In this document: one piece after another, positions 11,615 to 18,357 of the stretch
How the letters are laid out: every line of letters begins with the position of its first letter
How positions within the stretch are numbered: the stretch's first letter is position 1
Notes under the pieces: model-generated
What the model was told of the DNA's origin: nothing
Seen by the model: only the letters and a program-made list of their open reading frames with translations
Database searches by the model: none
IMG/VR virus record: IMGVR_UViG_3300032333_000117
Coordinates: 1 to 30,744 of that record
From: a virus
Direction: 5' to 3' (one strand)
DNA length: 30,744 bases
Position numbers and translations under genes: made by a program

Positions 11615-11878
11615 TCACTCCTCGTCGAAGACCCAAAATACTGTTCGTGATATCCGTCTACCCACGCCCGTCACATACTCGGTCGGTGGATCGTAGGAGC
11701 GGGTGTTCAGTACTGCCAGCTTGTTGATTACTTGTTCTGGTAAGCACTCCACCCGCATCACGCTTGTCTTGCCTTTCCCCACCATCCCTACCTCCACTAC
11801 TTCTACGTAGTCATCTGGTAGTGCAGTCACGCGAAGGAACGTGGTGTATTCCATCCCCGGCAGATCAAGCTGCGTCAT
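11615..11878 (-). CDS. 87-residue protein, unknown
   Basis: The product begins MTQLDLPGMEYTTFLRVTAL and is rich in alternating hydrophobic residues (VEVVEVGMVG, RTVFWVFDEE), which suggests a small beta-rich fold. It overlaps the upstream 389-residue gene by 4 bp and lies 4 bp before the VRR-NUC gene. No family recognised. It may be a partner of either neighbour. Confidence 0.55.
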   Translation of the reverse strand: MTQLDLPGMEYTTFLRVTALPDDYVEVVEVGMVGKGKTSVMRVECLPEQVINKLAVLNTRSYDPPTEYVTGVGRRISRTVFWVFDEE

Positions 11879-13084: not shown

Positions 13085-14302
13085 TCACATGCGGATGTGA
13101 ACAGTCTTGCCAACAGCCGGGCGAGCCGCCTTGTTGTTGAGCACACACCACAGCACGTCCATGTTCCAGTTCCCCCAGCCTCCGCCGAGGTGTCCATCAG
13201 TAAACACCACCGCTGCCGTAGCATCGATGTGGTTGGCGCGCAGGTAGTCCGTCACGCATTCCACGTTAGTGCCACCACCACCAGCGGGTTTGGTCGATGA
13301 TGCCAGTTCTGCCACGGGCATGTGGCCTTCGCCGTACACCTCAGCCGCACACACTCGCGTATCCCAGTACAACAAGTGCACACGAGTGACCATGACCGCC
13401 TCGAGCATGCCTATCACCTCTGACAAGAACTTGGTGAGATGTTCCTGCGCGATACTCATCGAAGTGTCCACTGCAATCACGATGTCCTCCATGCGCTCAC
13501 TGATACGCCCGGGGCGCAGTATGCCTGCGGCCATGCAGCGGCGGTTGAGTGTACGCCACGTAGCGTCCTCATCACCACGACATACGGTAGAGAAGAACTC
13601 ACGGGTGACCTCGCGCCAGTCCACCTCGACAGCAAGTAGCTCCTGTATCGCACGCCCACCTGTGCCCTTGCCCATCTTGGATGCGTTGATCACGCCCTGA
13701 CGCAGCGCCTCGTCAATGTCCTGCGCCAGCTGCTTCTGCTCATCCTTGCCCAAGTCCTGGGCACCAGCCCAGTCATGCGAGTCCATACCGTTGCTGGGTT
13801 GCGGCTGTTGCTGCTGTTGTTGCTGCTGTTGCTTCTGCTCATCACGCAGGATGTTGAACACCTGCGCCTCGTCCATGCCACGGAACCGGGTGTCGAGACA
13901 GCCCAGCGGCTTGCCGTCAGCCATCGGCATCTTCACAAACCCATCCGGGTTCTCGTCCACGATGGACAGGTTGATCACGTAGTCACACGCACGGTTGGCG
14001 AGGTCGGCATCGATGTCGTACATCCACTGGTAATGTATCAGGTGGCGGCGCACCTTGTGCTGGCTCTCGTGCAAGACTACGAACCGGAGGCAGGCGTCAT
14101 CGGCCAGCGTCTCGTCTACAAACTTCTTGCCATAGAACTCGTCACGCCCGTTGGTTGCTGCGGTGGGCAGGTCATCCTCGATCTTGCGTTCACCGATCAT
14201 GAACACACCGGCCATCACCGTGTATCGGTCATGGCTCATCAGTGCGTTGACTGCGCGCTCGAGACGCTGGGTGGTGGTCAGCGTAGGGTTGAATGAAAAC
14301 AT
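13085..14302 (-). CDS. DUF2201-type protein: HExxH metallopeptidase-like domain plus VWA domain
   Basis: The 405-residue protein has two parts. The N-terminal half shows VVLHESQHKVRRH with the HExxH zinc motif at residues 78-82, then DLANRACDYVINLSI, the pattern of the DUF2201 N-terminal metallopeptidase-like domain. A glutamine tract of about ten residues (from residue 156) links it to a C-terminal von Willebrand factor A domain, with the MIDAS motif DTSMS at 279-283 and GGGGTNVE, VVFTDGH later. Such proteins pair with MoxR-type AAA+ ATPases, as here, where the ATPase gene is immediately upstream. The pair is thought to act as a remodelling or metal-insertion chaperone; the phage substrate is unknown. 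Confidence 0.8.
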   Translation of the reverse strand: MFSFNPTLTTTQRLERAVNALMSHDRYTVMAGVFMIGERKIEDDLPTAATNGRDEFYGKKFVDETLADDACLRFVVLHESQHKVRRHLIHYQWMYDIDADLANRACDYVINLSIVDENPDGFVKMPMADGKPLGCLDTRFRGMDEAQVFNILRDEQKQQQQQQQQQPQPSNGMDSHDWAGAQDLGKDEQKQLAQDIDEALRQGVINASKMGKGTGGRAIQELLAVEVDWREVTREFFSTVCRGDEDATWRTLNRRCMAAGILRPGRISERMEDIVIAVDTSMSIAQEHLTKFLSEVIGMLEAVMVTRVHLLYWDTRVCAAEVYGEGHMPVAELASSTKPAGGGGTNVECVTDYLRANHIDATAAVVFTDGHLGGGWGNWNMDVLWCVLNNKAARPAVGKTVHIRM

Positions 14303-14334
14303 AGCAATGTCCTCGTGTTGTGGTTGTGGGTGGA

Positions 14335-15474
14335 TCAGTTGCCGAACAGGTGTGCGTTGTCACGTGCCCATGCCATGTACTCGGGGCAGCGGACGATCTG
14401 CTGCAGGCGTGGGTAGTCCTTCACCCGGGTGCCATTGCCGAACAGTCCCTGCGCCGGACGATCCAGACGCTGCAGGTAAGTCATCCACTGCGGTGCCCAT
14501 GAACGATCGACCGTGGCCAGTGCACGGAACACCAGCATGCAGACAGCTGACACTTTGTCAGGGATGCGTGCACCCATCGGGTCGTTGATGATCTCGTCCT
14601 TGCTGGGTATCTGCGTCATCAACGTGTTGTACGCCATCAGGTCCGATGCTGCACGGGGACCAACGGTGCCGGCCAGTGCTGCGCGCAGCATGTCGTCTGA
14701 GAACCTGCCACCTGCAGCAAGTACTGCGTCACGGTCATGCATGATGTCGCTGGCACCCTCGAGTGAACGCCCAGTAACAAATGCCACAGGCTTGCTGGCA
14801 GCACGTGGATCATAGATGTGCGGTGCCTCGCGCTCGGTGATGTCCGGGGACTCGAAGTCCATGAAGCTATAGAACAGCTGCGGCGTGTCCTTGGACCATG
14901 CCTGCACCGTGGGGTGAACACCTGCGGCGATCGACCAGCCCAGCCAGCCCAGCTGGTCGGACTTCTTCATGGTCACCACGGTGCAGCGGTTGCGGCCATG
15001 CGCTGGTAACAAGTCACCAAGACCCTCGGCCCCGAGGTTGGTAGTAGCGAACACCCGGGAGTCGGGGTGCAGCTGCATGTTGCCGTACTTGCGCTCATAC
15101 AGGACACGCAGCACAGCGTTGAACGCGGAGCGTGGCATCTTGCCGATCTCATCGAACATGAGGAGGACTGGCCCATCCAAGTGCAGGCCCAGCTCCTCAT
15201 GCGGCAGGGTAGTGAAGGTCATACCATCGGCGCTGTACTTGACCATGAAGAAGTCACCGCTGTCGGTCTTGGTGGTGCAGTCGATGTAGATGCTGGTGTA
15301 GTCGGCGAACTGCGGCATCGCCCCGATGATGTTCAGCAGGGCAGACTTGCCCCAGCCCATCTCGCCCTGCACGATGATGGTACGGTTGTGGCCGGTCGCT
15401 GCGATCAGGTCAGCGGTGTCGTCAATGTCCAGTGCAAACTGGTTGATCAGGTTGAATGCGGTACGTGCGGTCAT
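14335..15474 (-). CDS. MoxR/CobS-like AAA+ ATPase
   Basis: The 379-residue protein carries Walker A, QGEMGWGKSALL (residues 36-47), Walker B, VLLMFDEIGKM (103-113), and sensor 1, RVFATTNLGAEG (140-151). This arrangement is typical of the MoxR/CobS group of AAA+ ATPases, which form hexamers and work with VWA-domain partners. The next gene encodes that partner. The C-terminal 150 residues have a lid-like helical region with RSLEGASDIM. A separate promoter (15539-15566) and a stem-loop leader (15493-15508) with a GAGGAAGACGCT ribosome-binding site precede the start, so the pair may be made at a different level from the upstream genes. Confidence 0.88.
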   Translation of the reverse strand: MTARTAFNLINQFALDIDDTADLIAATGHNRTIIVQGEMGWGKSALLNIIGAMPQFADYTSIYIDCTTKTDSGDFFMVKYSADGMTFTTLPHEELGLHLDGPVLLMFDEIGKMPRSAFNAVLRVLYERKYGNMQLHPDSRVFATTNLGAEGLGDLLPAHGRNRCTVVTMKKSDQLGWLGWSIAAGVHPTVQAWSKDTPQLFYSFMDFESPDITEREAPHIYDPRAASKPVAFVTGRSLEGASDIMHDRDAVLAAGGRFSDDMLRAALAGTVGPRAASDLMAYNTLMTQIPSKDEIINDPMGARIPDKVSAVCMLVFRALATVDRSWAPQWMTYLQRLDRPAQGLFGNGTRVKDYPRLQQIVRCPEYMAWARDNAHLFGN

Positions 15475-15492
15475 AGCGTCTTCCTCTTTAGC

Positions 15493-15508
15493 TAGGGCCG
15501 TGGCCCTA
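15493..15508 (-). promoter_or_regulatory. Stem-loop in the leader of the AAA+ gene
   Basis: A TAGGGC/GCCCTA stem with a four-base loop lies about 20 bases before the ATG at 15474, immediately followed by a purine-rich ribosome-binding site, AGAGGAAGACGCT. The same layout, with unrelated stem sequence, recurs before three small genes at 20.3-20.8 kb. It may protect the 5' end after processing or modulate translation. Confidence 0.55.
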
Positions 15509-15538
15509 AGTTGTGGTTGGTTGTGTTACGTTTGGTGC

Positions 15539-15566
15539 ATTATACTGAAGTTTGTTATGGAGTCAA
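15539..15566 (-). promoter_or_regulatory. Consensus sigma70 promoter before the AAA+ gene
   Basis: The -35 box TTGACT (15566-15561) and a perfect -10 box TATAAT (15544-15539) are 16 bp apart on the minus strand. Start of transcription would be near 15532, giving a leader of about 60 bases with a stem-loop. It is the closest to consensus of the promoters in the window. Confidence 0.8.
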
Positions 15567-15576
15567 GGTTGTCGGT

Positions 15577-15903
15577 TTAGCGCAGCCGGTTAGCCCAGAA
15601 CTCCGCCGCTTGCTGTCGGGTCAGGGTCACGCCGAGCACCGAGCTGGTCACCTGTACGAGGATGTCCAGTGCTGTCATTGCTTCCTCTACTGCGTAGATG
15701 GACGGCGTGTACTCCTGCTCCACTGTGGGTACCGTGGGTATCGTGGGTTGTACTGCTGGCAACTCAAGCTCCAGCTGCTCTTCCTGCCTCACTTCTTGCT
15801 GTGCTGCTTTCCTCGCTGCTCGTGCAACGTCCCGGGATACGCGCATCTTCTCGAGACGTGCAGCCCGCTCCTCGGGGGGCAAGCTGCTCCAAAAGGGCTT
15901 CAT
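15577..15903 (-). CDS. Helical protein of unknown function between DUF3150 and AAA+ genes
   Basis: The frame is open back to 16026, but that start would overlap the DUF3150 gene by 62 bp. The ATG at 15903 (108 residues) has no ribosome-binding site. A clear one, TAAGGAG, lies after the DUF3150 stop and points to an ACG codon at 15954 with ideal spacing; a TTG at 15975 is also possible. The protein starts charged (KPFWSSLPPEERAARLEKMR), continues with an Arg/Ala-rich helix, a Pro/Val linker and a final helix set (LTRQQAAEFWANRL). No family recognised; position suggests it belongs to the AAA-VWA module. Confidence 0.5.
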   Translation of the reverse strand: MKPFWSSLPPEERAARLEKMRVSRDVARAARKAAQQEVRQEEQLELELPAVQPTIPTVPTVEQEYTPSIYAVEEAMTALDILVQVTSSVLGVTLTRQQAAEFWANRLR

Positions 15904-15964
15904 GTTCTGGCTGCATACAACGCGGAAGGTTTTGTTTTTGCGACCGTCTTTCGTGGGGCTCTCC

Positions 15965-16906
15965 TTACCAGCCAAGGCTGGGTATGTTGTTGATGATGTT
16001 GTCGATCTTCTGTTTCGTCTCAGCACGCAGGGTGTCGCTAGTCTTCAGCGCATCGTAGGTCACCCCAGTCAGCGCGTCCTTCAACTCGAGACGCACCCGC
16101 TCCATCTCGGTGTCCTGCGTCAGGTTGCATGTCCGCATGATCTCCACGATGTCCAGCACGTTCTGCACCAGCGTGCTCTGGAACCCGGACGGTTTGCCGT
16201 TGTCCTTGTCGGTCAGGCGCAGGCTCATGTTCTTGAGCGGGACCAGCAGTCGATCCCACACCCCACGCATCGCATCCTGCAGGCGGCTGCTCACGCTTGC
16301 CTCGTACATCTCGGCCAGCTCCTTGCGGATGTCCGCCTCGATCACACCCCGGAAGTCAGTCGGTTCGGGCATGGGCTCCATGAAGAACGACCAGCGGAAC
16401 TTACTGCGCAGGGTGGCCACTGAGGGATAGTCACCCTCGTCAAACGCATCGCCCAGCTCCAGCTGTGCACGTGCCACCTGTGCTGGGTAGTCTCGCAGGA
16501 ACGCCTCGCGGTGGTGCTCCAGCTGTGCAAAGTAACTGCGGACGGTGTTCATAACGTCTATGATGTACTCGTTCGGCATCATGTACCTGCCCCTGTCGTA
16601 GTCGGCAGTCTTGCTGCGGATGTACGCCCGCATCTCCCCCTCGATGCGCTTGCACTCGTGCAGGTTGGCACTGTCCACCAACTTCTTGGGCACCCGCAGG
16701 CGCCCTTTGTCGGCGTGCTTCACCTCGGCCAGCTCGGCGGCTAACTTCTTGTCGTTCACCTCGAGGGAGGGAACGCCTATGGACAGGGTGACCAGCTGGA
16801 TGCAGTCGGACACGCGCAGTGTCGGTTTGATGTCGGCCATGTGGGTGGCGTTGGTGTTGCTGGTGTTAGCCGATTGACTAACATTGTTGCTGGTGTATGC
16901 GTTCAT
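15965..16906 (-). CDS. DUF3150-like protein, partner of AAA+/VWA module
   Basis: The 313-residue protein has the features I associate with DUF3150: an N-terminal LVTLSIGVPSLEVNDKKLAAE, a middle DYDRGRYMMPNEYIIDVMN, then FLRDYPAQVARAQLELGDAF and DEGDYPSVATLRSKFRWSFF. The rest is helical, with two probable coiled coils. DUF3150 genes are often found beside CobS/MoxR-like ATPases and VWA proteins in mobile elements, exactly the situation here. Biochemical role unknown. The first 22 residues are a low-complexity Asn/Ser/Thr stretch whose DNA includes one copy of the 18-bp palindrome; an internal ATG at residue 23 (MADIKPTLRVSD) could be the true start. A promoter lies at 16985-17013. Confidence 0.7.
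   Translation of the reverse strand: MNAYTSNNVSQSANTSNTNATHMADIKPTLRVSDCIQLVTLSIGVPSLEVNDKKLAAELAEVKHADKGRLRVPKKLVDSANLHECKRIEGEMRAYIRSKTADYDRGRYMMPNEYIIDVMNTVRSYFAQLEHHREAFLRDYPAQVARAQLELGDAFDEGDYPSVATLRSKFRWSFFMEPMPEPTDFRGVIEADIRKELAEMYEASVSSRLQDAMRGVWDRLLVPLKNMSLRLTDKDNGKPSGFQSTLVQNVLDIVEIMRTCNLTQDTEMERVRLELKDALTGVTYDALKTSDTLRAETKQKIDNIINNIPSLGW
16865..16882. promoter_or_regulatory. Palindrome copy 1: GTTAGCCGATTGACTAAC
   Basis: It matches the intergenic copies at 15 of 18 positions but lies inside the first codons of the DUF3150 gene, about 100 bp downstream of its promoter. This fits a repressor site acting as a roadblock, or a site that shaped the low-complexity N-terminus. Confidence 0.6.
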
Positions 16907-16984
16907 GGTGTAGCCCTCTTGTGTTGGTGTTGTTGGTGTTGTTGGTGTTGCGTTGTACTGCGTTTCCCTGACTTCTTAGGAACC

Positions 16985-17013
16985 ATTTAACCACACTTGT
17001 GGGTGTAAGTCAA
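16985..17013 (-). promoter_or_regulatory. Sigma70-type promoter before the DUF3150 gene
   Basis: On the minus strand TTGACT (17013-17008) and TTAAAT (16990-16985) are 17 bp apart. The transcript would start near 16978 and have a leader of about 70 bases made of CAACAC-type repeats before the ATG at 16906. Confidence 0.7.
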
Positions 17014-17061
17014 GGTTTCTGCTTGTTCTATGCTGTTGTGTTATGTTTGCTTGTGTTTGCT

Positions 17062-17496: not shown

Positions 17497-18252
17497 TCAA
17501 AACTTACTAGCACGGCTGCCGTGTACCACGATCGCTATGTTCGGCTTGCCTGCAACCGATTCGCTCTTACCTCCGCACAGCATGCAGTCGGCGCAGGACA
17601 TGCCTTTGGAGTCGGACAGGCACTCGATCTCGTTGGGTCGGAGCTCGGTGATGTCGTGCACTATGCGGAAGGTCCGGGCCTTGTCGGCCCACAGGTTGAT
17701 TGATGTCTTCGCCGTTTCAGTACTCGCCATGCAGTACTGCAGCACCTCCGGGTCAAAATTCTTGTGGCGCATCTGGTGCGTGTAGCCGGTATGGCCGGAT
17801 GCAAAGGTCACAAGGTCACGCAGTACTCGTACTGGCACCGCCGCAGGATCGCCGTAGGCGCCCAGCCGGACCTTTCGGTTGCGCAATATCTTAGCCAGTA
17901 TTTGGTTGCGCAGTGGGGTGGCTGCAGGATGGGTCAGGTCCATGTATGCGCCTCGTTTGTATGCACGGTAGATTGATGTCGGTGCCTGTCCAAGGTTGAC
18001 GTAGCACGCGCCGCCGACCGACCACTTGTGTGGGCAGTTACCACAGATTGCGCTGTCCAGTTTTTTCTTGCTTGCATCCAGTGGGGACATGTCTTCCCGG
18101 ATGATCCATGTCTGGACCATGTCGCCGGTCTTGCGGTTGTTTGTTCGGGTAGTTAAAAGCATTATGATCGGCGCACCATCCAGCATGGATGGGCCTTTGT
18201 ACACGATGTAGCCGGTCGGGTTTTTCTTGCTGGTCTTGTTGGTCTTGCGCAT
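17497..18252 (-). CDS. Conserved phage/plasmid protein (DUF7227-like), unknown function
   Basis: The start is set at ATG 18252 because GAGGGCAAGGCA precedes it; the frame extends to 18300 through the 18-bp palindrome. The 251-residue protein shows KGPSMLDGAPIIMLLTTRTN, then SAICGNCPHKWSVGGACYVN (four cysteines counting the later ones), VRLGAYGDPAAVPVRVLRDL and SGHTGYTHQM. A later SCADCMLCGGK adds more cysteines. This pattern is widespread in phages and plasmids, often annotated as hypothetical; I recall it as DUF7227 but cannot check. The eight or so cysteines suggest metal or Fe-S binding. It is the first gene after the control region, read from promoter 18358-18386. Confidence 0.75.
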   Translation of the reverse strand: MRKTNKTSKKNPTGYIVYKGPSMLDGAPIIMLLTTRTNNRKTGDMVQTWIIREDMSPLDASKKKLDSAICGNCPHKWSVGGACYVNLGQAPTSIYRAYKRGAYMDLTHPAATPLRNQILAKILRNRKVRLGAYGDPAAVPVRVLRDLVTFASGHTGYTHQMRHKNFDPEVLQYCMASTETAKTSINLWADKARTFRIVHDITELRPNEIECLSDSKGMSCADCMLCGGKSESVAGKPNIAIVVHGSRASKF

Positions 18253-18280
18253 TGCCTTGCCCTCGTTGGTTGCGTTGTTT

Positions 18281-18298
18281 GTTAGGTAATGGACTAAC
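18281..18298. promoter_or_regulatory. Palindrome copy 2: GTTAGGTAATGGACTAAC
   Basis: It lies in the leader of the DUF7227-like gene, about 60 bp downstream of the -10 box at 18358-18363. A protein bound here would block the elongating or initiating polymerase. Confidence 0.7.
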
Positions 18299-18357
18299 AT
18301 TTGTGCATGATTGCTGCACTGTTGGTGCTGTTTTGCTTTCCCTCACCAACAGCCTAT

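Follow-up and report, generated by a model that had tools for sequence, protein, structure and literature searches.

What a MoxR-type AAA+ ATPase and a VWA-domain protein do in a phage, and which further genes work with them, is the question raised by the stretch of DNA analyzed here (the window, 30,744 nucleotides), a 30.7-kb linear virus record that is probably a fragment. The left 18 kb of the window encode, on the minus strand, an SNF2 helicase, a PD-(D/E)XK nuclease, and a family A DNA polymerase. The right part carries, on the plus strand, a terminase and a Mu gpT-like protein; the terminase is closest to those of phage 023Pt_psg01, Pelagibacter phages HTVC027P and HTVC023P, and cyanophage MinM2. 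A sequence-only reading had placed the locus in a phage early region, a label that is plausible, judging from the neighboring replication genes.

The VWA protein, the ATPase, a DUF3150-like protein, and a follower gene are collinear on the minus strand (Table 1), and an ORF check confirmed the places and strand of the ORFs named in that reading. The follower, which had been proposed as a probable member, is indeed a conserved gene with the same position in relatives, although it lies outside the interval originally delimited. ORF4, the “helical unknown” that had been counted in the unit, overlaps the DUF3150 gene by 62 nt and has zero homologues in 153 loci or in the phage collection. For lack of homologues it was rejected as a cassette member, and it probably stands outside the functional unit.

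Table 1. Features of the cassette and its surroundings in the window
Feature	Position	Strand	Remarks
Resolvase-like nuclease (Hjc, phrog_93), 107 aa	11287-11610		Conserved position after the cassette
87-aa protein	11615..11878	(-)	Family has a C-terminal motif (~49 residues) in common with the follower family
Follower protein, 389 aa	11875..13044	(-)	Conserved family outside Pfam and PHROGs
Zincin-type metallopeptidase and VWA protein, 405 aa	13085..14302	(-)	Pfam, PHROG, AF2 model
MIDAS DTSMS (DxSxS), residues 279-283	13454..13468	(-)	Further MIDAS residues T345 and D369
Predicted pore-inserting finger W..PNRR....G.Y.P, residues 247-266	13505..13564	(-)	Position compared with NorD (PMC9976466, PMC13036017)
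HESQHKVRRH (HExxHxxxxH), putative zinc site, residues 78-87	14042..14071	(-)	
MoxR/midasin-type AAA+ ATPase, 379 aa	14335..15474	(-)	phrog_1297, 9.8e-33
Walker B LLMFDE of ATPase	15148..15165	(-)	Alignment
Walker A GEMGWGKS of ATPase	15343..15366	(-)	Alignment
Palindrome TAGGGCCACGGCCCTA	15493..15508	(-)	Between promoter and ATPase start; single copy in the window
Sigma-70-like promoter, TTGACT-16-TATAAT	15539..15566	(-)	Before ATPase
ORF4, “helical unknown”	15577-16026	(-)	
DUF3150 protein, 313 aa	15965..16906	(-)	Inferred third core partner
Sigma-70-like promoter, TTGACT-17-TTAAAT	16984..17016	(-)	Before DUF3150
267-aa protein	17497-18300		C-terminal half of phrog_2554 matched, 1.4e-72

The ATPase and the VWA protein, encoded by adjacent genes on the same strand, match phrog_1297 and phrog_1314, respectively, near full length. 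The ATPase has intact Walker A and Walker B motifs, and its profile matches the solved structures of midasin (6e-39) and of MoxR (2r44; 1e-6), which, together with the PHROG match, supports its assignment as a MoxR/midasin-type AAA+ ATPase.

The VWA protein had been described as a two-domain HExxH-VWA protein, and that description holds: Pfam finds DUF2201_N (1e-15) and DUF2201 (1.2e-12), phrog_1314 is matched at 2.6e-75, and both the HExxHxxxxH site and the MIDAS are complete. In the putative zinc site, H78, E79, and H82 are present in 55 of 55 aligned proteins and H87 in 54 (the remaining one has D); D107 and N111 are likewise invariant. The AF2 model (pLDDT 87) places the HExxH in a helix with three strands before it, and the motif with its third ligand, which defines a zincin, is present in the metallopeptidase domain. 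The fold of this N-terminal domain was judged by profile; a structure search with the model of the VWA protein filled with VWA domains. The profile matches DUF2201_N in 53 of 53 members and M48 in 17 of 53, and its best solved match, short and with an E value of 0.0016 but with the HExxH helix aligned, is the MJ1213 protein (4qhf), a minigluzincin. A strand plus a helix with HExxH is common to the phage domain, the MJ1213 protein, and M48 peptidases, whereas the MJ1213 protein has no VWA fusion. The N-terminal domain therefore appears to be gluzincin-like, a putative peptidase. In phage rV5 (L190), the motif reads HGVGH, with the metal-ligand histidines kept and the catalytic Glu lost, and the L001 protein has a one-residue insert within the motif, so that some lineages may have lost cleavage, which cannot be essential everywhere. 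The rV5 reading frame is also split at its end in DQ832317. The DUF2201_N-VWA protein (phrog_1314), which occurs in many phage records, is often annotated as an HNH or homing endonuclease; for the window protein this label fails, as Pfam gives DUF2201_N, DUF2201, and VWA only and no HNH domain.

In the C-terminal part, the VWA fold is recovered with a Z score of 12.8 over 138 residues, and the MIDAS residues (DxSxS, T, D) are invariant. Between the two domains, ahead of the first VWA strand, lies a segment with an invariant P264 that we predict, from its position, to be a pore-inserting finger; the finger of NorD, one strand away from the MIDAS, enters the NorQ pore (PMC9976466, PMC13036017). 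Model confidence is low in this segment, which fits a finger that would be ordered only within the complex. NorQ-NorD, CbbQ-CbbO, and RavA-ViaA likewise combine a helix-2-insert AAA+ ATPase with a MIDAS-bearing VWA partner whose first VWA strand is preceded by a segment at the position of the finger. Unlike these pairs, the phage VWA protein has a metallopeptidase domain, and its cassette adds DUF3150 and the follower. Midasin (Rea1/MDN1), to which the AAA profile has its best solved match, also joins an AAA ring with a MIDAS but is a single giant chain acting on pre-ribosomes; to our knowledge, it has no metallopeptidase domain.

The DUF3150 assignment rests on relatives of the window protein. 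Taken alone, this protein matches Pfam DUF3150 (PF11348) with an E value of 0.006 and 16.4 bits, below the gathering cutoff of 24.9, but 20 of its 48 aligned relatives do match the family (best, 1.9e-7), and the MinM2 homologue, which adjoins a MoxR ATPase and a VWA protein in that phage, is annotated as DUF3150. By sequence, the window protein is a divergent DUF3150 relative and no formal member. Its AF2 model (pLDDT 87.6) consists of an N-terminal alpha/beta part followed by a long-helix bundle. Foldseek and VIA-align searches with the model returned only ties among helical bundles (best Z score, 9.8 over 97 residues), none of them informative, and no paper found in the literature search names DUF3150.

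Whether these genes form a unit can be judged from 154 loci, nonredundant by exact k-mers, that were found through cassette genes. All four families occur in 77 of the loci, with zero matches for decoy proteins, and the genes lie most often in the order DUF3150-AAA-VWA-follower (65 loci). Since loci fetched with one gene may miss others, co-occurrence was counted per query. Contigs fetched by DUF3150 contain VWA in 23 of 23 cases and AAA in 22 of 23, the lone exception being an 11,162-base locus (L031); AAA accompanies VWA in 75 of 80 VWA-fetched contigs, and VWA accompanies AAA in 73 of 80 AAA-fetched ones. The cassette genes thus do co-occur in the neighborhood survey that the sequence-only reading had suggested. 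Between AAA, VWA, and DUF3150, pairwise distances correlate at r values of 0.85 to 0.92 and, given the DNA polymerase (polA), still at 0.82 for AAA-VWA, 0.73 for AAA-DUF3150, and 0.76 for VWA-DUF3150, compared with 0 to 0.19 for a nuclease encoded a few genes away in the same polA-corrected test. For the follower, the values are 0.55 to 0.64. Such distance correlation can also mean co-transfer of linked genes. We infer that DUF3150 is a third co-evolving partner of the ATPase-VWA pair, which is new here; that two further families accompany this pair and co-evolve with it likewise looks new.

Searches of Pfam, PHROG, and PDB with the follower gave nothing convincing, but its profile matches a 299-aa family present in 87 loci (hhalign probability, 98.4%; E = 7.5e-15). 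Another family, of 322 aa (73 loci), sits between the VWA and follower families (e.g., L098, 11297-12178); as a follower relative, it was rejected (hhalign probability, 0.2).

The two dedicated promoters claimed for the cassette are present before DUF3150 and the ATPase and have AACCTTGACT in common, although the combined AACCTTGACT pattern was derived from the two sites themselves and its chance figure is not independent. Sigma-70-like promoters are over-represented at the same sites in relatives (23/105 before DUF3150 and 17/134 before the ATPase; controls, 1 and 2), with no such excess before their VWA or follower genes. Perfect palindromes (stem of at least 7) occur in the DUF3150 leaders of 33% and the ATPase leaders of 32% of the loci, against 1 to 3% in shuffles and 1.5% for DNA polymerase leaders. 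Palindrome families of at least 3 copies are found in 77 of 131 loci versus 0 in the Markov control, and 41% of the copies, versus 10% expected, lie no more than 80 nt before an ORF start. With arms of 6 to 11 bp, these palindromes are dispersed before cassette and other genes, the same within a genome and different between genomes; L064, L043, L170, L185, L143, and L068, among others, provide examples. RNA hairpins were rejected, as G-U mismatches (13) show no excess over A-C mismatches (12); given the lack of G-U bias, a DNA operator is the better guess, and the palindromes are possibly operators of a fast-evolving regulator.

The VWA protein is found in 646 phage records (tblastn). The ATPase belongs to the N4 gp24 family and the VWA protein to the N4 gp25 family, both of which are core genes of Schitoviridae (PMC7650795); in N4, the counterparts are middle genes (PMC4193335). 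The CRISPRi-ART paper gave no match for the cassette genes. As in the window, the N4 ATPase is followed by an HExxHxxxxH-VWA protein, and both are homologous to the window proteins along their length, at 20 to 23% identity, but N4 is without DUF3150 and has a dCTP deaminase in place of the follower. The ten other genomes tested (N4-like phages, rV5, jumbo phages, and phage G) have no DUF3150; since the N4-like and jumbo phages among them do without it, DUF3150 is not needed in all lineages. Tunturi_3 (L187) encodes a DUF3150 homologue, and these profiles found no AAA or VWA in its genome. The triad also occurs outside phages. Plasmids of Rhodovastum and Burkholderia carry contiguous AAA-DUF3150-VWA genes, the Burkholderia copy next to genes for type IV secretion, whereas a Simplicispira plasmid has the ATP-binding gene at a distance upstream of the others. 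Two of these plasmids, those of Burkholderia and Simplicispira, are typed conjugative.

We consider it reasonably probable that the cassette encodes a three-subunit phage MoxR-type AAA+/VWA machine with finger coupling, MIDAS client capture, remodeling and, in most lineages, cleavage. The ATPase would form a ring whose pore would receive the conserved finger of the VWA protein, by positional analogy with NorQD; the metal of the invariant MIDAS would grip an acidic residue of the client, and ATP turnover would pull or twist the client. In most lineages, the gluzincin-like N-terminal domain of the same protein, with its complete HExxHxxxxH, would then cut or trim it. DUF3150 would be a constant partner, most likely a scaffold or client selector, and the follower a phage-side accessory. 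The self-contained remodeling machine suggested earlier, now with DUF3150 as a third member, is well supported: its catalytic and MIDAS residues are conserved, and its genes keep their order and co-evolve. A cytoplasmic protein of replication, of the host, or of defense, met by phages and plasmids alike, is the probable client, rather than a part of the virion.

It is quite possible, although we lean against it, that the machine is a remodeling chaperone without proteolysis, its N-terminal metal site being structural or a metal donor, and its task being to load a phage or host enzyme with metal or to activate it, in the manner of NorQD and nitric oxide reductase. Remodeling or metal insertion is how the characterized MoxR-VWA pairs work (PMC9976466, PMC13036017), and the rV5 protein, with its ligands kept and its Glu lost, is what such a chaperone could look like. 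However, the catalytic Glu is retained in all 55 aligned proteins, diverse as they are (from phages such as N4, phage G, and jumbo phages), and also in the plasmid proteins aligned, which exceeds a purely structural need. Rather doubtful is a split ATP-dependent metalloprotease in which the MoxR ring feeds clients chosen by the MIDAS-VWA domain to the zincin on the same adaptor, with DUF3150 obligate and an intracellular target shared by lytic phages and plasmids. A machine for counter-defense or host takeover, disarming some host protein that acts on phages and plasmids alike, would fit the distribution common to the two, but a replication client would give the same distribution, and core status in Schitoviridae points to a general role. 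The cassette showed neither a PADLOC family nor a defense association; for the vWA-MoxR-VMAP conflict systems in particular, there was no PADLOC match and no such Pfam domain in the proteins scanned by Pfam. We regard this reading as unlikely.

A virion assembly factor that matures or remodels capsid or tail proteins is very unlikely: the pair does sit among structural genes in jumbo phage 121Q, and an ATPase that agrees in size and position, gp265c, by synteny the presumed counterpart of 121Q gp563, was detected in phAPEC6 virions (PMC7247149), but the VWA protein is missing from the examined part of that virion list, the neighbors in the window and in N4 are replication or nucleotide genes, the N4 genes are middle genes, and the triad resides on plasmids, two of them typed conjugative. 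(In phAPEC6, gp268c was ruled out as the VWA protein by gene order.) The plasmid copies mean that the client need not be a virion protein, and a machine serving virions only is unlikely to be kept by plasmids as well. The three-subunit machine that we favor retains the remodeling part of the sequence-only reading, the virion part of which is weakened by the plasmid triads; that reading had missed the N4 gp24-gp25 identity, the near-universal completeness of the HExxH site, and the nonconservation of ORF4.

The motor and its VWA partner were already known, without an assigned function, from phages such as N4. What the present analysis adds is that the N4 gp25 family, so often mislabeled, is a complete zincin-VWA protein and that DUF3150, as a co-evolving third subunit also found on plasmids, would provide concrete partners and mutants for a machine with relatives in more than 600 sequenced phages.
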